From Tenacibaculum sp. SG-28 (GTDB lineage Bacteria; Bacteroidota; Bacteroidia; Flavobacteriales; Flavobacteriaceae): DNA of 64,000 nucleotides. Under the pieces are notes generated by a model. It ran no database searches. It was given only the letters and a program-made list of their open reading frames with translations, and was not told the origin of the DNA. Below, piece after piece: positions 9,184 through 59,353 of the stretch (positions are counted from its first letter, which is position 1; each line of letters begins with the position of its first letter). The stretch lies in NCBI RefSeq assembly GCF_002954385.1, contig NZ_MQVY01000004.1, positions 124,001 to 188,000 of the forward strand, written 5' to 3'. The position numbers and the translations under genes were made by a program.

Positions 9184-10281
9184 TTATGCCATTTTTTTAT
9201 GAAAATTAGTGTGTACAATAGCTTCCATTCTTCGATACTTAAATTCGATATCTTTCAAGAGTTTAATTTGTACCTTGGCTCGCGTTAAATTCTCTGTGGT
9301 ATAACTTGTTTTGTAGTAGGTGTCACCGTTAAGATAATCGCTTAAAAATCGAATTGCTTGTTCAAAGGTGATAACTTTTACCCCTACTACCAAGGATGCT
9401 ATCTCGTCCGGGGTGATAAAATCTTTTGTGTGTTTTGTATATCCTTGTGTAAAAGCCTCAAAAAAGGAAAGATTCAAGCTAACTTTATTGAGGTTTTTTT
9501 CATTTTCATTAGCGGTATTCATTCCTGTTCTAACTGCGTCTCCAAAATCATAAGCAAGATATCCCAACATTGTAGTGTCTAGGTCGATTATGAAAGTTGT
9601 TTTGTTATCTTTATCAAAGAGAATATTACTAATCTTTGTATCTTGATGAATATTTCTCTTTGGGAGCTTTCCTTGTTTCCCTAATTCTTGTATTACGTTC
9701 ATTCCTTTTGCCGAGGAAAGTAAATAGTCTATTTCTTCTTTAGCAGTACTTATGCGGTTTACAAGGTCTATACTAATTGCTTTTTCAAATTGTTGTATGC
9801 GAACCTCTGTGTTGTGAAAATTAGGAATAGTTTCATAGAGGTCTGGTTTTGGAAGATCCAAAAGCATTTTTTGATACTCACCGAATGCTTTTCCCAAAAA
9901 TTCTGCTTGGATTTTATTTTCAAGAATCGGAAATGTTTTGGTGTTTTCTAAATAGTTAAACATACGCCAATACCCATGTTTTTCCTCTCTGTAATATCCT
10001 TTGTTTTCTTTAGTTGGTATAACTCTTAAATTTTTACCATTAGAGTAAGTGTTTGCTTTCGAGGAAAGGTGTTCGGTAATTCGAATAATATTTACTGTTA
10101 GTTGGGGAACATTCTTGAAAATAGTATGATTTATTTTCTGTAATATGAATGTATTACTGGTAGTACTGATTTTATAGGTCGTGTTGATATAACCAGATGC
10201 AATGGGTTCGATATTAGTGATATCGCCCTGTATGGCAAATGCATTCAAAATTCGAATAATGTCTAGTTGCTTTGAGGCCAT
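9184..10281 (-). CDS. APH-fold phosphotransferase, probable N-acetylhexosamine 1-kinase-like
   Basis: A 365-residue kinase of the aminoglycoside-phosphotransferase/choline-kinase fold. The catalytic loop NIHQDTKISNILFD follows the HxDxxxxN pattern and the metal-binding aspartate lies in FIIDLDTT. Full-length N-acetylhexosamine 1-kinases (NahK) share this fold. It overlaps the preceding nucleotidyltransferase gene by 19 bases and ends a minus-strand operon that also encodes a GH109 glycosidase. The context suggests phosphorylation of GalNAc or GlcNAc at C1 so that the partner enzyme can make the nucleotide sugar. Sugar specificity is inferred from neighbours, and antibiotic resistance is unlikely. 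Confidence 0.75.
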   Translation of the reverse strand: MASKQLDIIRILNAFAIQGDITNIEPIASGYINTTYKISTTSNTFILQKINHTIFKNVPQLTVNIIRITEHLSSKANTYSNGKNLRVIPTKENKGYYREEKHGYWRMFNYLENTKTFPILENKIQAEFLGKAFGEYQKMLLDLPKPDLYETIPNFHNTEVRIQQFEKAISIDLVNRISTAKEEIDYLLSSAKGMNVIQELGKQGKLPKRNIHQDTKISNILFDKDNKTTFIIDLDTTMLGYLAYDFGDAVRTGMNTANENEKNLNKVSLNLSFFEAFTQGYTKHTKDFITPDEIASLVVGVKVITFEQAIRFLSDYLNGDTYYKTSYTTENLTRAKVQIKLLKDIEFKYRRMEAIVHTNFHKKMA

Positions 10282-11174
10282 AATAAGGATGGGTAGGATC
10301 CGGATTGTGTAAGCTTTCTAATCGTTAATTTCACTATTTCTTCATCTTCTTTATAGGTCATTCCGAACCATTTAGCATTCGTCGGGATAACCTTAACTTT
10401 ACTATTTCCGATAGTAACAAGTGTATTAATAACTTCTGGAAGATAAAACTCTCTTTTTTCATCATTTGCGTATTCTTCTAAGAAATTTTCAAATTCTATT
10501 CCAAAATAGCGAAATATGCGCGGTGTAAGTCCGAACATATTCATTGATACAATGCTATTTTCATTTAGTGGTATTACGGCAGTATCTTCTATATTGTAAA
10601 TTGTGTTGTTTTTGCTAATTATATTTGTTTTTTCGATAATTGATAACAGGTTCGCACTTTTATCAATCTCGCAAATTCCTCTGGAAACTCCACCATTTGC
10701 AGATAGGGTATTTTTTAATCGAAACCCTATCATACATAATTCTTGAATAGAGGTTTCTTTCATAGCTATCAATTGCTCGTGTATTTGTTTTAACGATTCA
10801 AAACCGTAAAAATCATCGGCATTTATAACAGCAAAATTACTAGTTACCACCTTTCTAGCAGACCAAATAGCGTGGCCTGTTCCCCAGGGTTTGATTCTGT
10901 TGTTGACAGTAAATTTGCCAGGAAGATCAGCAATGTCTTGAAAAACTAATTCTATGTCGATATACTTTTTGAATTTGTCGGTTACGATGGTTGTAAACTC
11001 TGTTTCAAAGGTTTTGCGAATGACAAAAACGATTTTTGTAAAACCGACTCTCACTGCATCGAAAACAGCGTAATCCATGATTGTTTCTCCATTTTTGTTA
11101 ATGGCACTTAGCTGTTTGAGACCTCCAAAACGACTTCCCATTCCGGCAGCCAAAATTACCAATGTTGTCTGCAT
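10263..11174 (-). CDS. sugar-1-phosphate nucleotidyltransferase family protein
   Basis: A 303-residue GT-A fold nucleotidyltransferase. The nucleotide-binding signature LAAGMGSRFGGLKQ is at residues 8-21, and WGTGHAIWSA and the metal-site motif VINADDFYG follow, as in UDP- or dTDP-sugar pyrophosphorylases. It starts 9 bases after the GH109 gene and overlaps the start of the APH-fold kinase gene by 19 bases, so translation of the two is probably coupled. Together they can convert a free amino sugar to sugar-1-phosphate and then to a nucleotide sugar. The nucleotide and sugar used are not evident from sequence. Confidence 0.8.
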   Translation of the reverse strand: MQTTLVILAAGMGSRFGGLKQLSAINKNGETIMDYAVFDAVRVGFTKIVFVIRKTFETEFTTIVTDKFKKYIDIELVFQDIADLPGKFTVNNRIKPWGTGHAIWSARKVVTSNFAVINADDFYGFESLKQIHEQLIAMKETSIQELCMIGFRLKNTLSANGGVSRGICEIDKSANLLSIIEKTNIISKNNTIYNIEDTAVIPLNENSIVSMNMFGLTPRIFRYFGIEFENFLEEYANDEKREFYLPEVINTLVTIGNSKVKVIPTNAKWFGMTYKEDEEIVKLTIRKLTQSGSYPSLLWPQSN

Positions 11175-11183
11175 CTGTTAGAA

Positions 11184-12573
11184 TTAAATAGTTCTCATTA
11201 TCTCCAGTTTATTTTTGGTTTTCCATTGGCCATTTGTAAAGTCAGGAATAGGAATCGATAAACTTTTGCTAGCAACTGAAATTTCAGACAAGGGCGTTAT
11301 AGCGCTCCACATTACACTGTCATAGGTATTAATATCTAGTGGTAAACCTAAATTTAAGCAACGTATTAAGCGATATATCATGACGAAATCCATGCCTCCA
11401 TGCCCTTGCTTGAAATTCTGACTAATTTTTTTTAATTTTTTAATCATGGGGTGTTGGTATTTTTTAGCGTAAGAGGTGTATTCCGATGGTGATAACCATT
11501 GGTGCCCCCAATATACTAGGTCTTCTTTATCAATGTACAGTCTACTTGGATAGCCATCATGTGTAGCCTTGGTACCAACAACTTTATTGATTCGAGAATA
11601 TGGTCTGCCGGTATGAACGTCAAATTGAAGTAATATGGTTTTTTCTTTTGCGGTTTTTATCAAAGTAGAATTCATATCGCCGCATCGAAAATTTGTATAG
11701 GGTGAATTCATTTTTTGGCAGTTTCACTCAGGTTTAATTCCCGAGAGCTCATGGATGTTAAATGATCAAAGGTGTCACCACGTCCTATGCCTAAATAAAA
11801 ACTAATTGGTCCAAGACCATGAGTGGTATAGAAATTACCATCTCTTTCTACATGGTGTTTTAGGCGCCATTGGTCTTGGTAGTAGTCTTTACTTAACATA
11901 TGCGCTCGCAAATCATGCAGGTAAGCTCCTTCTGTGTGAGATATGTTTCCAAAGACTCCATTCTCTATCATATTAAGCACAAAAAGTTCTTCCTCATTGT
12001 AGCAGCAATTTTCAATCATGATGCAGTGCTTTTGATTTTTTTCTGCAGTTGCGACTAATTCCCAACATTCGCTAAGGTATATGCTATTGGAACTTCACAA
12101 GCCACGTGTTTGCCATGATTCATTCCATAGATGCACATTTTTGCATGCAATTCCCAAGGGGTAGCAATTAGTAGCAAATCTATGTCGTCTTGTGCTACTA
12201 GTTTCTGCCATTCTTTTTTATTTCCAAAGTAAGTTTTGGGTTTTCTCTTTTGCCATTGTTCTAGCTGCGAAGTGGCTTTAGTAACTTTTGTTTCATGTAG
12301 GTCGGCTAAAGCTACAATTTCGCAATAACTCTGTGTATGTAACCACGAAAACATTTGTAACAGTGTTGTTCCTCTATTTCCCAAGCCTATAATACCAACT
12401 TTAACTTTTTCTATAGGGGATGCTTTAAAACCAAATAAATTTCCTTTTGTTGGTTTTTTGGTGTTAGCTATTGCCTCAAGAACAGCATTGTCTTCCTTTG
12501 CATGTGTCGAAAATGGGAGCGAAATAAAGGCAGATGCACCAAGTATGGATCGGATAAAGTTTTGTCTATTCAT
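11184..12573 (-). CDS. Gfo/Idh/MocA-type glycoside hydrolase family 109 (two frameshifts)
   Basis: The three consecutive reading frames are one broken gene. The N-terminal part has a signal-like leader and a Rossmann fold (VGIIGLGNRGTTLLQMF). The middle part has NGVFGNISHTEGAYLHDLR and THGLGPISFYLGIGRGD. The C-terminal part has HGGMDFVMIYRL, ITPLSEISVAS and IPDFTNGQWK. These blocks match GH109 enzymes, which use NAD to hydrolyse alpha-N-acetylgalactosaminides. One missing base near 12070 and one missing A in the A6 run at 11711-11716 account for both breaks; repair gives 463 residues. It starts 7 bases after the M1 peptidase gene and ends 9 bases before the nucleotidyltransferase, so it is in an operon. 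GalNAc specificity is by family, not proven. Confidence 0.82.
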
Positions 12574-12580
12574 GGTTGTC

Positions 12581-14229
12581 TTAGTATAGTTTTTTAACTG
12601 TTACAAAATAATTTTTATCTACGTTAAGGGTATTTGTTGTTAGCTCTAAAGTTTGCCATGCTCTACTCGGATTTAGTCTTTTGTTTTGCCCGTTTACAGT
12701 TACGTCAAGCGGCATGTCAAAGCCTTTAACAACATTGTTCCAACGATAGAAAGTCGCATTTGTACCAATTTTATACTCAAAAACAGGGATTTTTGTGGTT
12801 CTAAGGTATTGGTCAAATACTTTTGTGAAGTTTGTCCCTGCTTTGTTTGAAATATATGTTTCTATTGCTTTCGTTGTCACTGTTTGATGATAGAAGTCGG
12901 TGTTTAAACCGCGTAAAATAGCCCTCCATTTCTCATCGTCTTGTATGATTTGCCGGATGGTATGCAGCATATTTGCACCTTTGTAGTACATGTCTCCTGA
13001 ACCTTCTTTATTTACATTGTAAACTCCTATTACAGGTTTGTCGTTTCTAATATTTCTTCGGGTTCCAATAACGTATTCGGCAGCAGCATTTTTTCCATAG
13101 TAATAGTCTAGGAATAAACTTTCGGAGTATGCCGTGAAACTTTCATGAATCCACATATCTGCAATGTCTTTATTAGTAATGTTATTTGCAAACCATTCGT
13201 GCCCAGACTCATGAATAATAATAAAATCAAATTTTAATCCCCAGCCTGTTCCCGAAAGATCACTGCCTAAATATCCATTTTTAAATTGGTTGCCGTACGT
13301 AACGGAGCTCTGGTGCTCCATGCCTAAATAAGGGACCTCTACAATTTTATAACTATCTTCATAAAATGGATATTTGCCAAACCAATGCTCAAAAGCTTTC
13401 ATCATTTTTGGAGCATCTTTAAATTGTTTTTTTGCCTTGTTCAAATGGTCACGAAGTACAAAATAGGTCATATCTAGTTCTCCTGCTTCCCCTAGATATT
13501 TTTCTGAAAAACTCACATAATCTCCAATGTTTAGATTTACACCATAATTGTTTATAGGATTGCTTACAAACCAATGGTATGTTTTCGTATTGTCTTGGTG
13601 CTCTTCTACTTTTCGCAGCCTTCCATTGGAAACATTAACAAGTGTTTTAGGAATCCTAACGCTTATCGCCATGCTGTCTACTTCATCGTACATATGATCT
13701 TTATTTGGCCACCAGACGCTGGCGCCAAGCCCTTGGCAAGAAGTTGCAATAAATGGTTTTCCGTTAGCGTCTTTTTTCCAAGAGAATCCACCATCCCACG
13801 GAGCATTAACAGCTTCCTTTGGTTGTCCTTGGTAGTACACAGTAATACTGTTTATTGAGCCGGGTTTTTGGGGTGCTTCTAAAATTACATAGTGGGCATT
13901 ACCATCAGAAGTAAACTTTATTTTTTTGTTGTTTTGGGTAATTTTAGTAATCTGCAATGGCGGTTGCAGGTCAATTTGCATGCGTTTCGCATTTTGAAGT
14001 ACTCTATAATATATGGTGTTTTTTCCTTCGATAAACTTTTTATCCGGTACTACGGAAATGTCTAGGTGATAATAGGTGAGATCCCACCAAATTCGTTCTG
14101 GTGTTACACTCCCTCTAAGTGTGTCTTGTTTGGTGAACTGTGTTTTTTTTGTCCAAGACAAAAGGTGCAAGTAAAAGTAATACAAAGGATAGTATACAGC
14201 AGTCGTGTATTTATTTTTATTGGCAACAT
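12581..14229 (-). CDS. M1 family metallopeptidase (signal peptide frameshifted)
   Basis: A secreted or membrane-associated M1 aminopeptidase. The zinc site is in IIHESGHEWFANN (HExxH with a downstream Glu in WIHESFTAY), and the exopeptidase motif reads GMEHQ. As written the long frame opens at a TTG inside the signal sequence. Starting at the ATG at 14229-14227 gives a normal signal peptide (RLLYTILCITFTCTFCLGQ), and adding one A to the A8 run at 14143-14150 joins it to the body, for 549 residues. It is the first gene of the operon with GH109, the nucleotidyltransferase and the kinase, 7 bases from GH109, suggesting glycoprotein or glycopeptide breakdown. It probably degrades peptides in the periplasm or outside. 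Confidence 0.85.
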
Positions 14230-14325: not shown

Positions 14326-15125
14326 ATGCCAAAGGTTGTTTTTATTACTGGAGCTTCATCGGGAATAGGGAAGTCAATAGCACTCTATTTACACGATAAA
14401 AAATATAAAGTGTATGGTACGAGTAGAAAACCAGATAAAGTTTCGGTTCCTTTTTCAATGGTTGCACTTGACGTAACAGATGCAAATTCTATAAAGAACG
14501 CAGTACAAGAGGTCATAGAAAAAGAGGGTAGGATAGACGTGCTAGTCAATAATGCAGGAAAAGGAATTACAGGACCTTTAGAGGATACTCCAATAGAGGA
14601 AATAAAAAATAATTTTGAAACTAATTTTTTTGGCACAATTGCGGTCATTAAAGAGGTGCTCCCGGGAATGCGAAGTCAAAAAGATGGTTTACTTATCAAT
14701 GTCACTTCTATTGCCGGATATATGGGACTTCCCTACAGAGGCGTGTATTCTGCAAGTAAAGGCGCTTTAGCCTCGTGACAGAGTCTTTAAGTATGGAGTT
14801 AAGAGAGTTTGGTTTACATGCAGTTACTGTTGCTCCTGGAGATTTTGCAACGAATATCGCTTCTGGAAGATACCATACGCCAGTTTTTGAAAACTCAGCT
14901 TACAGAGTTAATTACGGTAATAATTTGGCACTTATGGATGCACATGTAGATGCCGGAGCAGACCCGATACTTATGGCAAAGAAGATTCATAAAATAATAG
15001 AAACTAAGCCTGCTAAAATCCACTATAAAGTAGGAGGTTTTATGGAAAAATTCTCCATTGTTTTAAAGCGTATTTTACCGGATAAAGTTTACGAAAAACT
15101 GCTTATGAATCATTATAAATTGTAA
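14326..15125 (+). CDS. short-chain dehydrogenase/reductase (frameshifted)
   Basis: A classical SDR oxidoreductase. The N-terminal part has the cofactor motif ITGASSGIGKSIA (residues 6-18), NNAGKG and the active-site YSASKGAL. The frame then meets TGA at 14776-14778. The C-terminal part continues in another frame from 14775 (VTESLSMELREFG, then VAPGDFATNI). One missing base after 14774 explains the break; repair gives 266 residues, a normal SDR length. The divergent region of 96 bases separates it from the M1 peptidase gene. The substrate is unknown: many family members reduce carbonyls with NADPH, but nothing in the sequence fixes this. Confidence 0.82.
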
Positions 15126-18060: not shown

Positions 18061-19297
18061 CTACTTTTTATCTTCCATATCAATTTCTGTATTTTCTTCT
18101 ATTTCGTTGTTAGTATTTTGTTTCTCTTGGCTTTCTAGTAAGTCATTAACTCTTTTAATATTTTCGTAAAAAGCGTTAGCATTAGGATCAGACATGTTCA
18201 TTTTTCCATAGGCTGCCTTGTAATAGAAATCAGCTTTTTCATAATCTTCTCCAATTTCGTAATATTTTCCAATGTAATAGTCTCCGAGGTGAAGATCTGG
18301 GTACTGAATGGAAACAAAGTCACCTAGTACTCTTAGGTAATCTCCATTTTGTTTGTCGATGACAATTCCTTCAATGGCATAGATGTCTTCTAGGCGCACT
18401 TTTAAGTTTGTACCATAAAGATACTCGATGTCTAAATATTTTTTCTCCACATATTTTATGGCTTCAAGAGGTTCTAATTCCTGCAGGTGTTGTTCAAATT
18501 CACTTTTAGTAATTTTGCCATACAGAGAAAACATCAAATCAAAAGCCCTCGGGATACTTTCACTTACCGTAGAGAGAAAACTTGGAGAGCCATTGAAGGT
18601 ATCGAATTTTACTTGTAGGTTTTCTAGCTCATAAGAAGTTAATAGAATACCAATCTCATTAAATCTATTGAAAAGAGCCTTTTTGGTATGTTTTTCTGAA
18701 TTGCTAGCAAAAACAAAAAAAAGTATTGTCTATCTCTGAAATTCTCTGTAGTGCATACGATCGGATTAGTTCCGAGGAGAATTCTGAGAACTCTGGAGTA
18801 GCACATATGTAAGCGTTAAATATAGGTTCTGATTCTTTTAAAAAATGGCTTATAAAGTTAGCGGCTTTACCCTCTGCCGATATGGCTAAAAAAGGAGAGG
18901 TTCTAAAAGTAGATTCTGTATACTGCAACAATTCATATTTTATGAAATTATAAAAATTTATTGCACTGTTTGTCAATGCATTTGTAGCGGGTATTATAGA
19001 GGTGTCTTTATCATACGTTGTAGTCATGTCTATTCCAATCACTATTTGCTGCGGTGCCATGTCTGCATCGGCATATAATTTAGCATTTCCTACGTACAGG
19101 TCAAACAAGTATTGATCTCCCAAAACAATAGCAACCGGATATTGAACTTCAGTATTTTTTTTATAGTCTTTAGGAACGTATACTTTAATTGCTTGTTTTC
19201 TTTTTAGTTCTTTTGAATCAATTGTCTTGGTAAGAATTTCTTGAGAATATGAACTTATAGAAATCGTTAATACGAGTGTAAAAATTAGAAATTTCAT
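18061..19297 (-). CDS. secreted esterase-like alpha/beta hydrolase with TPR-like tail (frameshifted)
   Basis: A signal peptide (residues 1-18, ending SYSQ) precedes an esterase D-like alpha/beta hydrolase domain: IKVYVPKDYKK, YPVAIVLGDQYLFDLY and a weak nucleophile region FLAISAEGKAANFI, with serine in the SAEG position. The frame stops in a T8 run (18715-18722 on the plus strand); with T7 it continues FFVFASNSEKHTKKAL and runs to 18061, giving 411 residues. The C-terminal part has helices resembling a TPR (YEKADFYYKAAYGKM) and an acidic, Asn/Glu-rich end. This is the only break here that needs one base fewer rather than one more. Substrate unknown. Confidence 0.75.
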
Positions 19298-19348
19298 GGG
19301 GAATTAATTATAATATTCAAATATAAAAATAAAATAAAGTTATTGTGT

Positions 19349-19356
19349 TATTTTTG
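19349..19356 (+). promoter_or_regulatory. -7 element (TATTTTTG) before menB
   Basis: TATTTTTG fits TAnnTTTG and lies 28 bases before the menB ATG in the divergent gap with the esterase gene. No convincing -33 box is seen. Confidence 0.5.
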
Positions 19357-19384
19357 CTTATTATAACGTTAATAGTTTTAAAAT

Positions 19385-22773: not shown

Positions 22774-24020
22774 TTGAAGGCAGAAGTTATTACAATAGGA
22801 GACGAAATACTCATTGGTCAAATTGTAGACACAAATTCGCAATGGATTGGAAAGGAGTTGAATAAAATTGGTGTTTCCGTATACCAAATATCGTCTATCC
22901 AAGACCAGAAAGAACATATCTTAAAAGCGTTAAAAGAAGCACAGTCTCGCGCAGATATCGTAATTATAACAGGTGGACTTGGGCCTACAAAGGATGACAT
23001 TACCAAAAAAACAATAGCTACTTATTTTAAGGACGACACACTAGTAGAATACCCTGAGGTGATTGCCAATATAAAAAGAATACTGAATAAGGTAAAGCAT
23101 CCCTTCAATGCAGTGCAGAAATACCAGGCACAACTTCCTTCCAAGGCTACCTTACTGATGAATCATTTTGGAACAGCTCCCGGTATGTGGTTTTATGAAA
23201 ACGATACCGTATTTGTATCGTTACCAGGAGTGCCCTATGAAATGAAAGGCTTGATGCAAAATGCCGTCATCCCCGCGATTCAAAGTAAGTTTGAGTTGCC
23301 TTTTATAATCCATAAGACAATAATGACTTATGGTACCGGAGAAAGTGTGATTGCAGAGCGAATAGAGGATTGGGAAAACAATCTTCCTAGTCATATTAAG
23401 CTTGCATATTTACCATCTTTTGGAAGGGTGCGTTTGCGTCTTTCTGCCAAAGGCAATGAAGAAGTTCTTTTGAAAGCTCAAATGGATCAAAAGGTACGAG
23501 AACTACATAACTTATTACCTGATATAATCGTAGGTGTTGAGGATGGAGATTCCATAGAAAAAAAGTAGGAGCACTTTTGAAGGGTAAAAAACAAACCCTG
23601 AGTACGGCAGAGAGTTTAACGGGAGGGAAAATAGCCTCTGCATTAGTAGCAAATCCAGGTTCCTCCGAGTATTACTCCGGAAGTATTGTTGCCTACAATG
23701 CAACTCTCAAAGAAGATTTACTTGGTGTATCGAGGGATATTATTGAGAAAAACTCTACAGTTAGTGAACAAGTAGCCAAGCAAATGGCAACAGGTGTTAT
23801 GGAGCGATTACAAACTGACTACGCAGTAGCAGTAACTGGAAATGCCGGACCAACCGCCGACCATAACGATAAGGACCCTGGTTTGGTTTATATCGCTGTA
23901 GCCTCTAAAAATACTGTTGAGGTGCAGGAGTTTAATTTTGGCCAGCCGAGAGAGAAAGTAATAAACAGAACCGTAACTAAAGCTTTTGAGTTATTACAGA
24001 AAAAGATTCTTGAAAATTAA
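22774..24020 (+). CDS. cinA: CinA family nicotinamide-nucleotide amidohydrolase / competence-damage protein (frameshifted)
   Basis: The N-terminal frame is a MoCF-like domain ([44 protein letters not shown]). The C-terminal frame is the CinA amidase domain ([24 protein letters not shown]), which deamidates nicotinamide mononucleotide in pyridine nucleotide recycling. The first frame stops in the A7 run at 23558-23564; one more A joins them into 415 residues, the usual length. The start is a TTG at 22774, supported because [11 protein letters not shown] begins exactly where family members begin. It is followed by rpmB, as in many flavobacteria. Confidence 0.92.
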
Positions 24021-24946: not shown

Positions 24947-25899
24947 ATGAGCTTTTTCAAAAAAATATTTTCCAAAGAAAAAAAAGAAACACTTGACAAA
25001 GGATTAGAAAAATCAAAATCTAGTTTTTTTAATAAATTATCAAAGGCAGTGGCTGGTAAATCTAAAGTTGATGAGGATGTTTTGGATAATTTAGAGGAAG
25101 TTCTCGTTTCTTCCGATGTTGGGTAGATACGACTTTAAAAATTATTGATCGAATTGAAGATAGAGTCGCTAAGGATAAGTATTTAGGAACAGACGAACTA
25201 AACAAAATTCTACGAGAAGAAATAGCAGACTTATTAGCAGAGACCAATACAGGAAATGCTGTGGATTTCGCCATTCCAACAACTTCCAAACCATATGTAT
25301 TAATGGTGGTTGGAGTAAACGGAGTTGGTAAAACAACAACCATCGGAAAACTCGCATCTCAATTTAAAAAGAAAGGCTTAAAAGTTGTTCTTGGTGCAGC
25401 CGATACATTTCGTGCAGCTGCTATTGACCAATTACAAGTTTGGGCAGACAGAACTGAGGTACCGATTGTACGACAAGAAATGGGTTCTGATCCTGCCTCA
25501 GTAGCCTTTGATACGCTAACCTCCGGGATACACCAAGATGCAGATGTTATTATTATCGATACCGCTGGTCGTTTGCATAACAAAGTAAATTTAATGAATG
25601 AGCTCTCCAAAATTAAAAGAGTAATGCAAAAAGTGGTTGCAGATGCTCCTCATGACGTTTTATTGGTGTTGGATGGATCTACAGGGCAAAATGCGTTTGA
25701 GCAAGCAAAGCAGTTTACCAAAGCTACTGAGGTGACATCACTAGCGGTAACCAAACTTGATGGTACTGCCAAAGGAGGTGTAGTTATTGGTATTTCTGAT
25801 CAATTTAAAATTCCGGTAAAGTATATTGGTGTAGGGGAAGGAATAGACGACTTGCAGGTGTTTAACAAGTATGAGTTTGTAGATAGTTTTTTTAAGTAA
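24947..25899 (+). CDS. ftsY: signal recognition particle receptor FtsY (frameshifted)
   Basis: FtsY is the SRP receptor GTPase that delivers ribosomes to the Sec translocon. The first 59 codons (SFFKKIFSKEKKET to VLVSSDVG) end at a TAG at 25124-25126. One more G in the GGG at 25121-25123 restores DVGVDTTLKIIDRI and the rest of the NG domain: GVNGVGKTTTIGKLA, DTFRAAAIDQL, DTAGRLHNK and TKLDGTAKGG. The repaired protein has 317 residues, normal for the short A-domain form. FtsY is essential in most bacteria, so a real null mutation is very unlikely and the break is best read as a sequencing indel. Confidence 0.95.
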
Positions 25900-25972: not shown

Positions 25973-27651
25973 GTGAAATTTACCTATTTCACCCTTCTTT
26001 GTGTTCTGTTTTTAGCTTCATGTAACGAACATAAAACTTTGCCTAATGTTGCAAAATATGATGAAACTGCTGTTATTGCGGAACAGCAGAAGCATCAAAA
26101 CCCTAGAATGAGGTTTACTAGTATCCAGTCTAAGTATACAGATTTGAATACCATATTTTTGCCATTTCAAGATGATTTATCTTCTTTTTCAAATGCAGAG
26201 TACGAGCGTTTAAAACCCTATATTCTAGAGAAAAGTATCCCCGAATTGCAAGCGTATATTGCTGCTAATGAACTCACCTACGAAAGTTTAGTTAAATTTT
26301 ATTTATATCGAATATGGAACTTTGAAAAGGACAGCACCAAATCCTTACAGGCAATTATTGCATTGAATTCAAATGTCATACAAGAGGCAAAGCAGAGAGA
26401 TAAAAACAGGAAGCATTCCAAGAAGCAATCTCCGCTATATGGGATGCCTATTCTGTTAAAAGATAATATTGATTTTATCGGAATGCCAACAACCGCAGGA
26501 GCAGCTGTTTTAGCTTCTCATTATCCATCTGAGAATGCCTTTATTGTAGACAAGCTTCTCTCAAAAGGAGCTCTTATATTGGGGAAGACCAACCTGAGTG
26601 AATGGGCCTATTTTTTTGTGAAGGTTGTCCGTTAGGTTACAGTGCTATAGGTGGGCAAACATTAAATCCGTATGGGAGAAAAAAATTTGAAACTGGCGGC
26701 TCAAGTTCAGGCAGTGGTGCCGCTGTAGCGGCTAATTATGCCGTAGCTGCAGTTGGTACGGAAACTTCAGGATCTATTACATCGCCGTCTAGCCAAAATT
26801 CAGTGGTAGGGCTAAAGCCAGGTCCTGGGGTATTAAGTAGGTCTGGAATTGTTCCTATATCGAGTACTTTAGATACTCCTGGTCCTATGACTAAATTTGT
26901 TGTAGACAATTTAATTTTATTGGATGGAATGATAGGCCAAGACCCAAAAGATGTGCAAAATACGGTTTATAAAAGCAGTACCTTCAATACTATAGCTTTC
27001 GACAGTATCGTTAATGCTTTTAGCAAAAGAAAGGTTGGTGTTTTTTCATATTTATATTCAGATACCATATACAAACAGACCATTGATAAAATTACTTCTT
27101 TTGGTGCAAACGTACTAAATCTCAAGCCTGAAGAAATGTCGTATACTGGCTTTTTAAATCTTCTTACTACCGATATGCGTAATGATTTGTCAAAATACTT
27201 GAAGACTATGTCTGCAGATACTACATCGATTCAAAATACAGAACAAATTGTCGCTTTTAATAAAAAAGACTCAGTAAAGAGAATGCCATATGGGCAAAAA
27301 CTATTGTATGGCATCGTAAAAGATACCACCACAGAGGCCTCCTTACACAAGCTAAAAAATACCTTGAAGAAGAATGCACAAAAATATTTAGGTGCTTTAT
27401 CAAAAAAATCGGTATCTGTTATTTTGTCTATAAATAATTACCATTCTGGTGTTGCAGCGTTAGCAGGTTATCCAACACTCACAATTCCAATGGGATATCG
27501 TTCTAGTGTAGAACCCGTAAGTCTTACGTTAATTGGTCTGCCAGATTCTGAGCAAGAATTGTTAACGATGGGATTCACCTTCGAGAAACAAATAAAAATA
27601 AGAAGGTCTCCCAAAAACTATAACCAAATAGTGTGTAAAATCCTCATTTAA
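25973..27651 (+). CDS. amidase-signature lipoprotein (frameshifted)
   Basis: An amidase-signature (GatA-like fold) enzyme with a lipoprotein signal (FLASC, Cys at about residue 17), so it is probably anchored in the envelope. The Lys of the Ser-Ser-Lys triad lies in MPILLKDNIDF. The second frame carries GGSSSGSGAAVAANYAVA and TETSGSITSPS with the serines. The first frame runs out in the T7 run at 26611-26617; one more T gives SEWAYFFCEGCPLGYSAIGG and a continuous 559 residues. The start is GTG. Related flavobacterial proteins are called amidases without a known substrate. It lies between ftsY and rimO. Confidence 0.85.
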
Positions 27652-29028: not shown

Positions 29029-30179
29029 CTAATCGAGTGTAAATACGAAAGAACTACCTTTTCCTTTTTCAGAAAATACTTTAACATATCCTCCGTAATT
29101 CGTGACAATCTTTTCCACGATAGATAGCCCTATTCCGGTAGAGTCTTTATTGTTTTCTAATTTTTGAAAGATATTAAATATCTTTTTATGGTATTTTTTT
29201 GCAATTCCAATACCGTTATCTTTAACAAAGTATTCGGGTTTGTTATTTACAATAGTAAAGCCTACTTCGATTAGGCCTTTTTCCTTATCGTTGTACTTTA
29301 TCGCATTGTGAATTAAATTTTGAAATACTTGTTGTAACCTGTGTTTGTCTCCTTGTACAACAGGGAAATCAGGGTGTATTTTTATGGCAATATGCTCCGG
29401 TATATATACATGATGTGTTACGATATCATTTATAATTTTTGAAATAGCAACAGGTTCTTTTCGATAGCTTTTGGCTCCTATGGTAGAATATTCTAAAATT
29501 CCAGTAATGAGATCTTCCATTCTTGAAATATTTTCATTGATAAGGTCTAAATACTGCTTTGCATCATCATTTAAATGTTCTCTATGATCTTCTTTAAGCC
29601 AAGAGCTAAGTGCGTCGATATTTCGCAATGGAGATTTTAAATCGTGCGATACAATATGCGCGTAATTATTCAATTCTTTATTCCTCTCTTCTAAGGTTTT
29701 AAGTAAAGCTTTTTGGTTTTCATAAGCGATGCAGGCTTCAAGAGTATTGGCAAATTTGTTGATAACCGGTAAAATTTGTTTAAGTTTTTTAGAGTGCTCA
29801 TTTCGTACTTTTGAATACAAAAATAAATACCCGTGATCTTGCAGTTTAAATATTACAATATAGCCCTTTTCAATAGTTAGTGTAACCAGCTCTTTGTACT
29901 CTTCACGATATTTAATAATTTTAAAATCGTCTATTTCTTGAAGAAATTGTTGTAGTCTTAGTGGTATTTTTTTTTAATAGTTTTACCATTAGGAATGGCA
30001 AATTTTTTGTTAAACTCTCCTTTTTCTTGGCCAATAATCCAACAAGCATTCAGATTTTCACGTTTTAATAATAATTTTAAAAAGGAATCACAATTTTCAT
30101 GGTAACTTAAATTCTTTCCGATACTCATGGAATATTCGTATAGTCTTAATATATCTAGTATTTGATTATCTCTATCCAT
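29029..30179 (-). CDS. GAF-like sensor histidine kinase (frameshifted)
   Basis: A cytoplasmic sensor kinase of 383 residues after repair. The N-terminal 170 residues look like a GAF domain without membrane segments. The kinase core has the H-box VSHDLKSPLRNI, the N-box HNAIKYND, then DNGIGIAKKYHKKIF and STGIGLSIV. The first frame stops because of an A9 run (T9 at 29967-29975); one more A continues with IPLRLQQFLQEIDDF. The phospho-accepting histidine is intact. It is the last gene of a PAS / FIST / kinase set on the minus strand, 5 bases after the FIST gene. No response regulator is adjacent. Confidence 0.85.
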
Positions 30180-52888: not shown

Positions 52889-53825
52889 TTATAATAGACC
52901 TCTTCCAATTTTCACCATTGTATTGGATGCGAGGTATTCTTTTGCGAGTTTATCTAAAACGCCATTTATAAAATATCCACTCTTATTGGTAGAATAGTCT
53001 TTGGCTAATTCTATGTATTCGTTGATCGTCACACGACTTGGAATGGATGGGAAATGTAAAAATTCAGTAATAGCCATTTTGATTAAAATCATGTCTACAT
53101 CTGCAATTCGATCGCTTTCCCAATTTGGGGTCTTGTTTTTTATGTCGATATCGTATTTGTGCTGGTTTAATACTGTTTTTTGAAACAACTCGGTAACAAA
53201 CTTTTTATCGTCATCATCCTTGTATAAGGTGCCAAGTATAAATGGGTTTTTAACACTTTGTTTGTTAAGGGTTTTTAGAACCCATGTGTTTACAAAAGGC
53301 ATATCGTCTACCCAAGAAATCATTTTATCTTCAAAATAATCTGCTAATTTTTCGTTAGGTGCGATGATTTCACGGAAAAAATTTATTACGAAGCTTCTGT
53401 CTACATTATAAGAGTCCTCTACTGTATTCATATATTTAGCGTAGAGTTCGCTGTCTAATAATTCGTCGTAAATAATTTGGATGTACTTATCGTCTAATTC
53501 CCAATAATTAAGATGGTGTAGTGCAATGTAGCTTTCCAAGCTCACACTTTCGGATAAGATATGTAATAGTCTATTGGATATAAATTTTGTGTTGGGGTTC
53601 AGGTCTTCCTTAGTAGCGAGCATTTTCTTTTTAGAAAGTTCAATTTTCTTCTTTGCTAATTTTTGAGTTTCAATTAATAGCTGCAGATTTAAAACGTATA
53701 GGTCGTACATTTTTGAATGCTATGCTTCAAAACTTTTCTTCTTTAGTAATGTCATCACTTAGTGATTGTTGCATGGCATAAAGCGATTGCATTACTTTTA
53801 CGCGAATATGTCTTCTGTTTATCAT
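52889..53825 (-). CDS. nusB: transcription antitermination factor NusB (two frameshifts)
   Basis: NusB binds boxA RNA with S10 and promotes rRNA antitermination. Here it is the long flavobacterial form. The usual N-terminus (INRRHIRVKVMQSLYAMQQ) begins at the ATG at 53825 and breaks near 53729-53732, where AAAA should be AAAAA. A second base is missing in the T5 at 53710-53714. Repair gives KEEKFLKHSIQKMYDLYVLN and 312 residues. C-terminal blocks are intact: NKTPNWESDRIADVDMILIK and FPSIPSRVTINEYIELAKDY. Without repair a gene finder would call a truncated protein starting at MYDLYV. First gene of the nusB-DUF1573-yajC block. Confidence 0.93.
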
Positions 53826-58506: not shown

Positions 58507-59353
58507 TTTATCTCGTTTATAAGTTCTTGTTTAATGGCAGGGAATTCTGTCCATAACAATGCGTGTCCTGCTTCATTTAAAGTTACAAATTTAAGTTGAT
58601 TTTTTGGTAGTTTTTCTGCTAATAGGATTGAATTTTCGTAAGGAACAATCCAATCCGAAGTACCGTGAATACTAAGAATTTTATTGGGGGTATTTTGCCA
58701 ATTATTTTCAAAAGTAACCAGATCTGAGGCATGACTCATTTTTTCTTTAGAAGCTTCTTTCCATACCCTAGGAATTAGCCATCTTGTAATTTTCCATCTG
58801 TATAAATTAAGGGCCCAAGGGATGACCTCTTTAGTGCCAAAAAGCGCCGGTGCGATAAGTACTATTTTTTTAACTTTTTTTTGGTTGCAAGCGCTATAGG
58901 CCCTCCATAGGAATACCCTACGTAGACGATGTTGTCATTCGGTATCTCTTTGGTTAGGTCATCTAATAAATCCCTTTCAAAAGCAATACTTTCTTTTACG
59001 TGATTTTTGTCTTTATAATTGTAGCCAACCCTGTCGTAGGCAAGCATGTTGAATTTCTCCAAGAGACCTTCGTCCATCATGTACTTCTCGAAATCAACAC
59101 AAGAACCAACGGTGCCGTGCACAAACACCAAGGTTGGTAGGCTGTCTTTATGTTGTAAGGTTAAAGTTCGGTAGGTATAGCCTCTATAAGTTTTATAACC
59201 AATAACCGGTTTTACACTAGTATTCTCGAAAGGAGTTAATAATTCCTCATCAGCAACTGGTGCTGTTAGAGAACTAAAAGCAAACCATACTAATGCGAAG
59301 ACAAAAAATAGGGTCAAACATACTATTCTTATTTTGTTTACGTGTCTAGACAT
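58503..59353 (-). CDS. membrane-anchored alpha/beta hydrolase (frameshifted)
   Basis: An alpha/beta hydrolase of 283 residues after repair. It begins with a single hydrophobic helix (IVCLTLFFVFALVWFAF) that anchors it in the membrane. The oxyanion motif is VFVHGTVGS, the nucleophile serine lies in GYSYGGPIALA, and the Asp and His lie in HGTSDWIVPYE and EAGHALLW. The frame breaks in the A8 run at 58875-58882; one more A gives KKIVLIAPALFGTKEVIPW and continues to 58503. It overlaps the thioesterase stop by one base and the menF TTG by four. MenH would normally be soluble, so its role in menaquinone synthesis is unclear. Confidence 0.82.

Follow-up and report, generated by a model that had tools for sequence, protein, structure and literature searches.

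The 64,000-nucleotide stretch analysed here (positions 124,001 to 188,000 of contig NZ_MQVY01000004.1, hereafter the window) belongs to Tenacibaculum sp. SG-28, whose genome is a 2.8-Mb draft in 17 contigs, 93% complete. On its minus strand, from 14229 down to 9184, the list of open reading frames (ORFs) gives an M1 peptidase, a glycoside hydrolase of family 109 (GH109), a nucleotidyltransferase (NT) and an APH-fold kinase. The M1 and GH109 genes are separated by 7 bases and GH109 and NT by 9, while the NT and kinase genes overlap by 19 bases. This arrangement, with its order and coordinates, had been described in an earlier interpretation made from the letters alone (the sequence-only reading), and all of it was recovered. 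The last three genes, hereafter the cassette, are considered below as a candidate salvage route for an amino sugar.

Layout of the operon and predicted enzymes

The Pfam profiles Peptidase_M1, GFO_IDH_MocA together with Glyco_hydro_109_C, NTP_transferase and APH all score above their cut-offs on the operon ORFs (Table 1). From the ORF layout of the window alone, GH109 and the NahK-like kinase are co-directional with short gaps. Scans for promoters (25 in the window versus 20.0, standard deviation 4.1, in shuffled sequences) and for terminators (3 versus 3.3) were uninformative.

Table 1 Features of the four-gene operon in window coordinates
Feature	Position	Strand	Evidence
NahK-type N-acetylhexosamine 1-kinase (putative), 365 aa, APH fold; by eye without leader	9184..10281	-	PF01636 E 6.6e-16
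Sugar-1-phosphate nucleotidyltransferase (predicted), 3PNN family, 303 aa; 3' end contains the kinase ATG	10263..11174	-	PF00483 E 1.8e-6
GH109 C-terminal piece, third frame; GHGG loop as QGHGG	11184..11711	-	PF21252 E 9.7e-13
GH109 middle piece, second frame; similarity extends upstream to ~12076	11708..12019	-	PF21252 E 2e-27
GH109 N-terminal NAD-binding piece, first frame; leader-like N terminus	12055..12573	-	PF01408 E 2e-14
M1 family metallopeptidase, 534 aa ORF	12581..14185	-	PF01433 E 1.3e-15, PF17900 E 2.8e-9
Probable M1 signal-peptide start, frame differs from rest of M1	14143..14229	-	frame comparison; 8-base homopolymer at 14143

Judged by sequence, the kinase is a full-length homologue of NahK: residues 10-356 of its 365 match PDB entries 4wh1 and 4ocj with E about 6e-70, and its PDB matches at E <= 0.001 are NahK-type entries only. 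Residues H212, D214, K216, D233 and D235 are invariant in 16 aligned homologues. D214 aligns to D208 of NahK, the aspartate of the HxDTK motif, which we take to be catalytic. By analogy with published homologues, the enzyme would phosphorylate N-acetylgalactosamine (GalNAc) or N-acetylglucosamine (GlcNAc) at C1. Two side observations concern kinases of this fold. At G000:C5:46087-46794 (L001), a second APH-family domain within a 1017-codon open frame outscores the NahK-like kinase with PF01636, and at G116:C2:410480-410848 a single open frame of 142 codons holds short overlapping kinase and NT matches, which may be left over from the pair.

The NT matches only three PDB entries at E <= 0.001, namely 3pnn (E 1.3e-82), 2ux8 and 9o90. 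AAGMGSRFGGLKQ, G11, R15 and K20 are invariant in 17 homologues and compose the GxGxR...K signature. Its AlphaFold model (pLDDT 92.5) has as best fold match 3PNN from Porphyromonas gingivalis W83, with Z 39.8 over 294 residues and 44-45% identity; the listings of that structure assign it no function and bear no more specific title than 'glycosyltransferase' or 'Conserved domain protein'. The runners-up, tied at Z 22-24, are RmlA, GlmU, UDP-glucose pyrophosphorylases (GalU-type) and cytidylyltransferases. Hence the model has the fold of a sugar-1-phosphate nucleotidyltransferase, and as a means of telling UTP from dTTP the fold search ended in ties, enzymes of UTP, dTTP and CTP all lying at Z 22-24, so that no nucleotide is singled out.

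PF01408 and PF21252 are both found on the GH109 pieces of the window and on the intact orthologue of the same-genus genome G102. The latter is closest in the PDB to 6t2b (E 1.4e-89), followed by 2ixa (7.4e-66), structures that presumably come from Akkermansia and Elizabethkingia and that belong to the same family over most of its length. Teze and colleagues reportedly described, in the title of a 2020 paper, a GGHGG loop with an acid-base histidine in GH109. The window protein keeps the loop histidine, but its loop reads QGHGG. Among 18 proteins picked by motif and length, which include some duplicates and one doubtful member (L187), GGHGG occurs in one and the others have A, Q, V or S before GHGG. 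Also unlike the two structures, the window protein falls in a subgroup with lower PF21252 scores, about 147-156 bits (153 for the G102 orthologue) versus about 280-315 bits in the best-scoring group. Activity as an alpha-N-acetylgalactosaminidase is predicted by analogy with family members. The Bacteroides caccae GH109, as described in the parts of PMC12269599 considered, is an alpha/beta-N-acetylgalactosaminidase.

Finally, the M1 ORF carries the zinc motif HESGH...E at residue 325, with the HEXXH-18-E spacing, and the exopeptidase motif GMEH at residue 288.

Interrupted frames in the window

The sequence-only reading had counted four genes between 9184 and 14229, with GH109 as one of them. 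This picture had to be revised, as GH109 is spread over three ORFs in three frames, and the ATG at 14229 starts a leader-like reading frame other than the one that encodes M1. For comparison, same-genus ORFs from 20 neighbourhoods of M1, 20 of the kinase and 12 further stretches were set against the window. GH109 aligns in its three frames to single ORFs of 462-463 codons in G102, G144 and G101. The M1 frame changes near 14143-14150, within a run of eight identical bases, and leader and enzyme share one frame in 20 of the 20 same-genus M1 genes examined. A counter-case is the relative L043, which aligned to the window M1 almost from its own start, in the ORF's own frame.

With GH109 and M1 included, the comparison shows ten split window genes and 11 sites. 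One of them, at 24947-25896, is otherwise 89-95% identical to its relatives. A homopolymer of at least six bases lies at 7 of the 11 sites (10 from the frame comparison plus the M1 start, inspected as stretches of 46-71 bases) versus 16% of random 46-base stretches. Because GH109 and M1 are unbroken in the relatives and splits affect ten genes here, very conserved ones among them, assembly indels are the likelier cause, to judge from these alignments. That the window instead holds a decaying operon with GH109 and M1 broken would fit the two frameshifts of GH109 and the one of M1, but the spread of frameshifts over ten genes, the homopolymers and the clean frames of NT and kinase make decay quite improbable.

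The draft thus seems rich in indel errors, and other short genes or 'pseudogenes' in the window therefore deserve doubt. Besides GH109 and M1, the eight split genes, mostly broken at homopolymers, lie at 14326-15125, 18064-19361, 22774-24017, 24947-25896, 25973-27624, 29032-30179, 52892-53825 and 58515-59353. The stretch 18061-19297 corresponds to one ORF of about 410-435 codons in relatives, and the two ORFs listed there (158 and 197 aa) probably belong to a single gene.

Conservation in the genus and co-occurrence in the phylum

The four-gene arrangement was followed in a same-genus sample of 58 genomes, source genome included. The same genes in the same order are found in G144, G102 and G101, as well as in a further contig, L126 (uncultured Tenacibaculum sp. 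4-648-3Z). Since these four share it, the arrangement is more than chance. The M1 gene has a much wider distribution. Strong orthologues (E below 1e-200) are present in 31 of the 57 other genomes, and the cassette lies behind M1 in three of them. Among 20 mapped M1 loci, GH109, NT and kinase directly follow M1 in the same three (G102, G144 and G101) and not in the other 17, and an SDR-transaldolase-menD flank is kept at ten loci, three with the cassette and seven without. The remaining 11 genomes with M1 either lack the kinase or, by coordinates, have it elsewhere. M1 is thus the older gene, behind which the cassette was either gained or lost, and only position ties M1 to the sugar route. The coupling of peptide trimming to sugar release put forward by the sequence-only reading is not borne out by these counts. 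That the M1 peptidase takes part in the pathway is not supported, its gene being older and mostly without the cassette.

Co-occurrence was counted in the same genus and in a phylum sample of 197 other genomes, the window's own genome being left out of both. In the phylum sample the kinase is present in 34 genomes, the NT (counted at E below 1e-30) in 37 and GH109 in 56. The NT occurs in 33 of the 34 kinase genomes (Fisher p 6e-32, with genomes treated as independent, though related), and so does GH109 (33/34). Left out of these counts were a weak second kinase match in G254 (3.5e-7) and three genomes with weak NT matches (E 1e-4 or worse). The kinase and the NT lie at most 500 bases apart at 17 of 34 phylum loci and at 22 of 23 same-genus loci, the lone exception being G104, where the kinase begins at base 11 of its contig. 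The genus count keeps a short contig-end NT fragment (G103:C13, 3.2e-15) and leaves out two fragments that overlap in G116 (kinase 3e-5, NT 2.8e-18), an NT fragment at G125:C32 (3.3e-4) and NT matches of E 8.7e-8 or worse. In many cases the kinase and NT ORFs directly adjoin each other or share about 10 bases.

The link to GH109 is looser. At most 5 kb separate it from the kinase at 11 of 34 phylum loci, versus 0.1 under uniform placement, and at 5 of 23 same-genus loci; 23 of the 56 GH109 genomes in the phylum sample have no kinase. Mapped on a tree of 88 kinases, 'NT and GH109 near' requires six changes, and six are forced by well-supported branches. The link between the pair and GH109 has therefore been gained or lost repeatedly. 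The neighbour labels used for the tree and the locus maps undercount GH109 for L094-L121, where flanks span only ~1.5 kb, and for G201, G282 and G247 the labels show no GH109 although coordinates place it ~1.2 kb away.

Other neighbours, named from one representative of each family, bear on the sugar. Of 40 mapped kinase loci from the genus and family, 14 have genes for an MFS sugar transporter and a NagB-PIG-L protein of ~642 codons behind the NT-kinase pair, and 14 have a divergent gene of LacI type ahead of it. GH20, KduI and a KduD-like SDR are further neighbours at a few loci. Four Bacteroidales loci of 80 (L132, L136, L141 and L142) carry, in this order, a ROK regulator, an MFS or SSF transporter, NT, kinase and GH20. 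These neighbours fit the use of N-acetylhexosamines (HexNAc), partly from GalNAc-containing glycosaminoglycans. Taken with the counts above, the pair occurs mostly apart from GH109, which the sequence-only reading had named as damaging to it if the substrates were also unrelated; judged by the NagB-type genes, sugar transporters, GH20 hexosaminidases and KduI, they do not look unrelated.

Two further observations were made at these loci. The 642-codon protein of L083:4911-6839 and its relatives is a fusion of a NagB-type domain and a PIG-L deacetylase domain, and a HexNAc intermediate may be the substrate of the latter. By record titles, the NT also occurs beyond Bacteroidota, in L155 (candidate division KSB1), L138 (Spirochaetaceae) and L131 and L187 (Clostridia). 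In L155 and L187 it adjoins a NahK-like kinase, and in L155 a GH109 gene lies 2.7 kb away.

A candidate route from GalNAc to a nucleotide sugar

Overall, we read GH109, NT and kinase as an amino-sugar salvage cassette, most likely for GalNAc, placed behind an older M1 gene, with the NT giving UDP-GalNAc; we put the probability of this reading at about 0.6. It builds on the observed gene order, families, conservation and co-occurrence of the cassette. HexNAc 1-phosphorylation and GalNAc release by GH109 are taken over from published homologues, and we infer all substrates, the reaction with UTP, the localisation of the enzymes and any role of M1. In this scheme, an exported GH109 would free alpha-linked, possibly also beta-linked, GalNAc from glycopeptides or other glycans, using bound NAD. 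The sugar would be imported by a transporter encoded elsewhere and converted by the cytoplasmic kinase to GalNAc-1-phosphate, which the 3PNN-type NT, whose gene overlaps that of the kinase, would join with UTP to form UDP-GalNAc, doing the job of GalT in bifidobacteria. GalE, encoded elsewhere in the genome, would then convert UDP-GalNAc to UDP-GlcNAc. This product could enter cell-wall or exopolysaccharide synthesis or, via GlcNAc-phosphates, be catabolised by a NagB-like enzyme.

Half of this route has a precedent. In Bacteroides thetaiotaomicron, BT4240 is a 1-kinase with a ~275-fold preference for GalNAc; it is encoded in one operon with the GH109 BT4243 and is required for growth on GalNAc (Ndeh et al. 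2025, PMC11992087). The likeness of the BT4240-BT4243 operon and of the polysaccharide utilization locus BT4240-50 to the window operon extends to a peptidase in the locus, there a mucin peptidase. As described in that paper, however, the operon has a GH2 and a putative sugar transporter and no nucleotidyltransferase, and its peptidase is M60-like rather than M1. Conversely, the GH2 galactosidase and the sugar transporter are absent from 9184-14229 of the window, where NT and M1 stand instead. The pairing of GH109 with a GalNAc 1-kinase, which in the sequence-only reading would, with a dedicated NT, make up a distinct salvage route, is thus already published. A word search of the main text of PMC11992087 for 'UDP', 'epimerase' and 'pyrophosphorylase' gave no match, and the parts of the paper considered here do not state the fate of GalNAc-1-phosphate. 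The glycosidase-kinase half is known, and the dedicated NT is the new element. What stands of the sequence-only reading is a route of GH109, NahK-type kinase and NT as the best reading, the three families travelling together in the phylum sample; its M1 step and the newness of the pairing fall away.

The lacto-N-biose/galacto-N-biose pathway of bifidobacteria comprises NahK, GalT, GalE and a phosphorylase (PMC6668579). As outlined there, it resembles the proposed route in its NahK-type HexNAc 1-kinase, the subsequent UDP-transfer step and epimerisation by GalE. It differs in using a phosphorylase and GalT, whereas the window has a glycosidase and a PF00483 nucleotidyltransferase.

Several points weigh against the proposed route. 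No transporter gene lies inside the cassette, and the window frames of GH109 and M1 are interrupted as sequenced. The window GH109 belongs to a lower-scoring branch, the PF21252 score of its G102 orthologue being roughly half as high as in the best-scoring group, which makes its specificity less sure. The kinase could equally serve GlcNAc. The NT is present without the kinase in 4 of the 37 NT genomes of the phylum sample and does not adjoin it at 71 of 145 NT loci, which were drawn by NT similarity and partly by picking loci without an adjoining kinase. Since it also occurs without or away from the kinase, the NT may have wider substrates. Lastly, we found no measured activity for any member of the 3PNN family. 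Searches of the open-licence literature returned no paper assigning a function to the NT, and the search for 3PNN gave no paper.

The alternative that survives best is salvage of GlcNAc, or of HexNAc in general, in which kinase and NT would make UDP-GlcNAc from free GlcNAc of chitin or peptidoglycan turnover, with GH109 loosely linked. Most kinase loci indeed have no near GH109, the NT-kinase pair adjoins GH20, NagB-type and MFS genes in other genomes, and the NahK of B. longum is said in PMC11992087 to act similarly on GlcNAc and GalNAc. Yet GH109 recurs near the kinase far beyond the 0.1 loci expected, the characterised kinase of B. thetaiotaomicron has its strong preference for GalNAc, and KduI and KduD-like neighbours at a few loci suggest GalNAc-containing chondroitin there. 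We consider this alternative fairly unlikely.

Less probable again is that the NT is a broad uridylyltransferase for galactose-1-phosphate and HexNAc-1-phosphate, which would stand next to the kinase on account of a general role in the Leloir pathway. Its model would be GalY (Amuc_0031), also a PF00483 protein proposed for a Leloir step, which Ravcheev and Thiele (2017, PMC5583593) predicted to replace GalT in gut bacteria; some NT loci without kinase do lie beside transporters. GalY was, however, proposed for galactose in genomes without GalT, whereas the NT has a HexNAc kinase as partner and a GalT in its genome, the two families being compared by description only. Classical GalT is present in the window genome and in the three full-operon relatives (4/4 searched), and the NT accompanies the kinase in all kinase genomes of the phylum sample but one. 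Moreover, the window genome also has GalE and a 644-codon NagB-like frame, and the NT is therefore not needed there as a general GalT. We consider a mere replacement of GalT in the source genome to be weakened, GalT being found in every operon-bearing genome searched.

Peptidoglycan recycling of the AmgK/MurU kind, which combines an anomeric sugar kinase with an N-acetylmuramic acid-1-phosphate uridylyltransferase, shares the same fold pair (APH and NTP_transferase) but is the most improbable of all, as the PDB sequence matches of both proteins at E <= 0.001 include no chain named MurU or AmgK, leaving that identity without sequence support, and the neighbours are HexNAc genes.

Returning to the GalNAc reading, a broader proposal, to which we give about even odds, is that the 3PNN family supplies the second enzyme of GalNAc use in Bacteroidota. 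It would be a dedicated UDP-GalNAc (UDP-HexNAc) pyrophosphorylase using the product of the NahK-type kinase and replacing the GalT exchange of bifidobacteria, within a UTP-driven, Leloir-like HexNAc pathway that would have joined with GH109 several times. The family, which includes a solved structure, 3PNN, provides a concrete candidate for the enzyme that takes GalNAc-1-phosphate further. If our reading is wrong, a tight kinase-transferase pair still stands. If it is true, the route from the GalNAc of mucin or chondroitin to a nucleotide sugar would be complete in a phylum important in the gut and the sea, and the NT would possibly be a new enzyme for making UDP-GalNAc.

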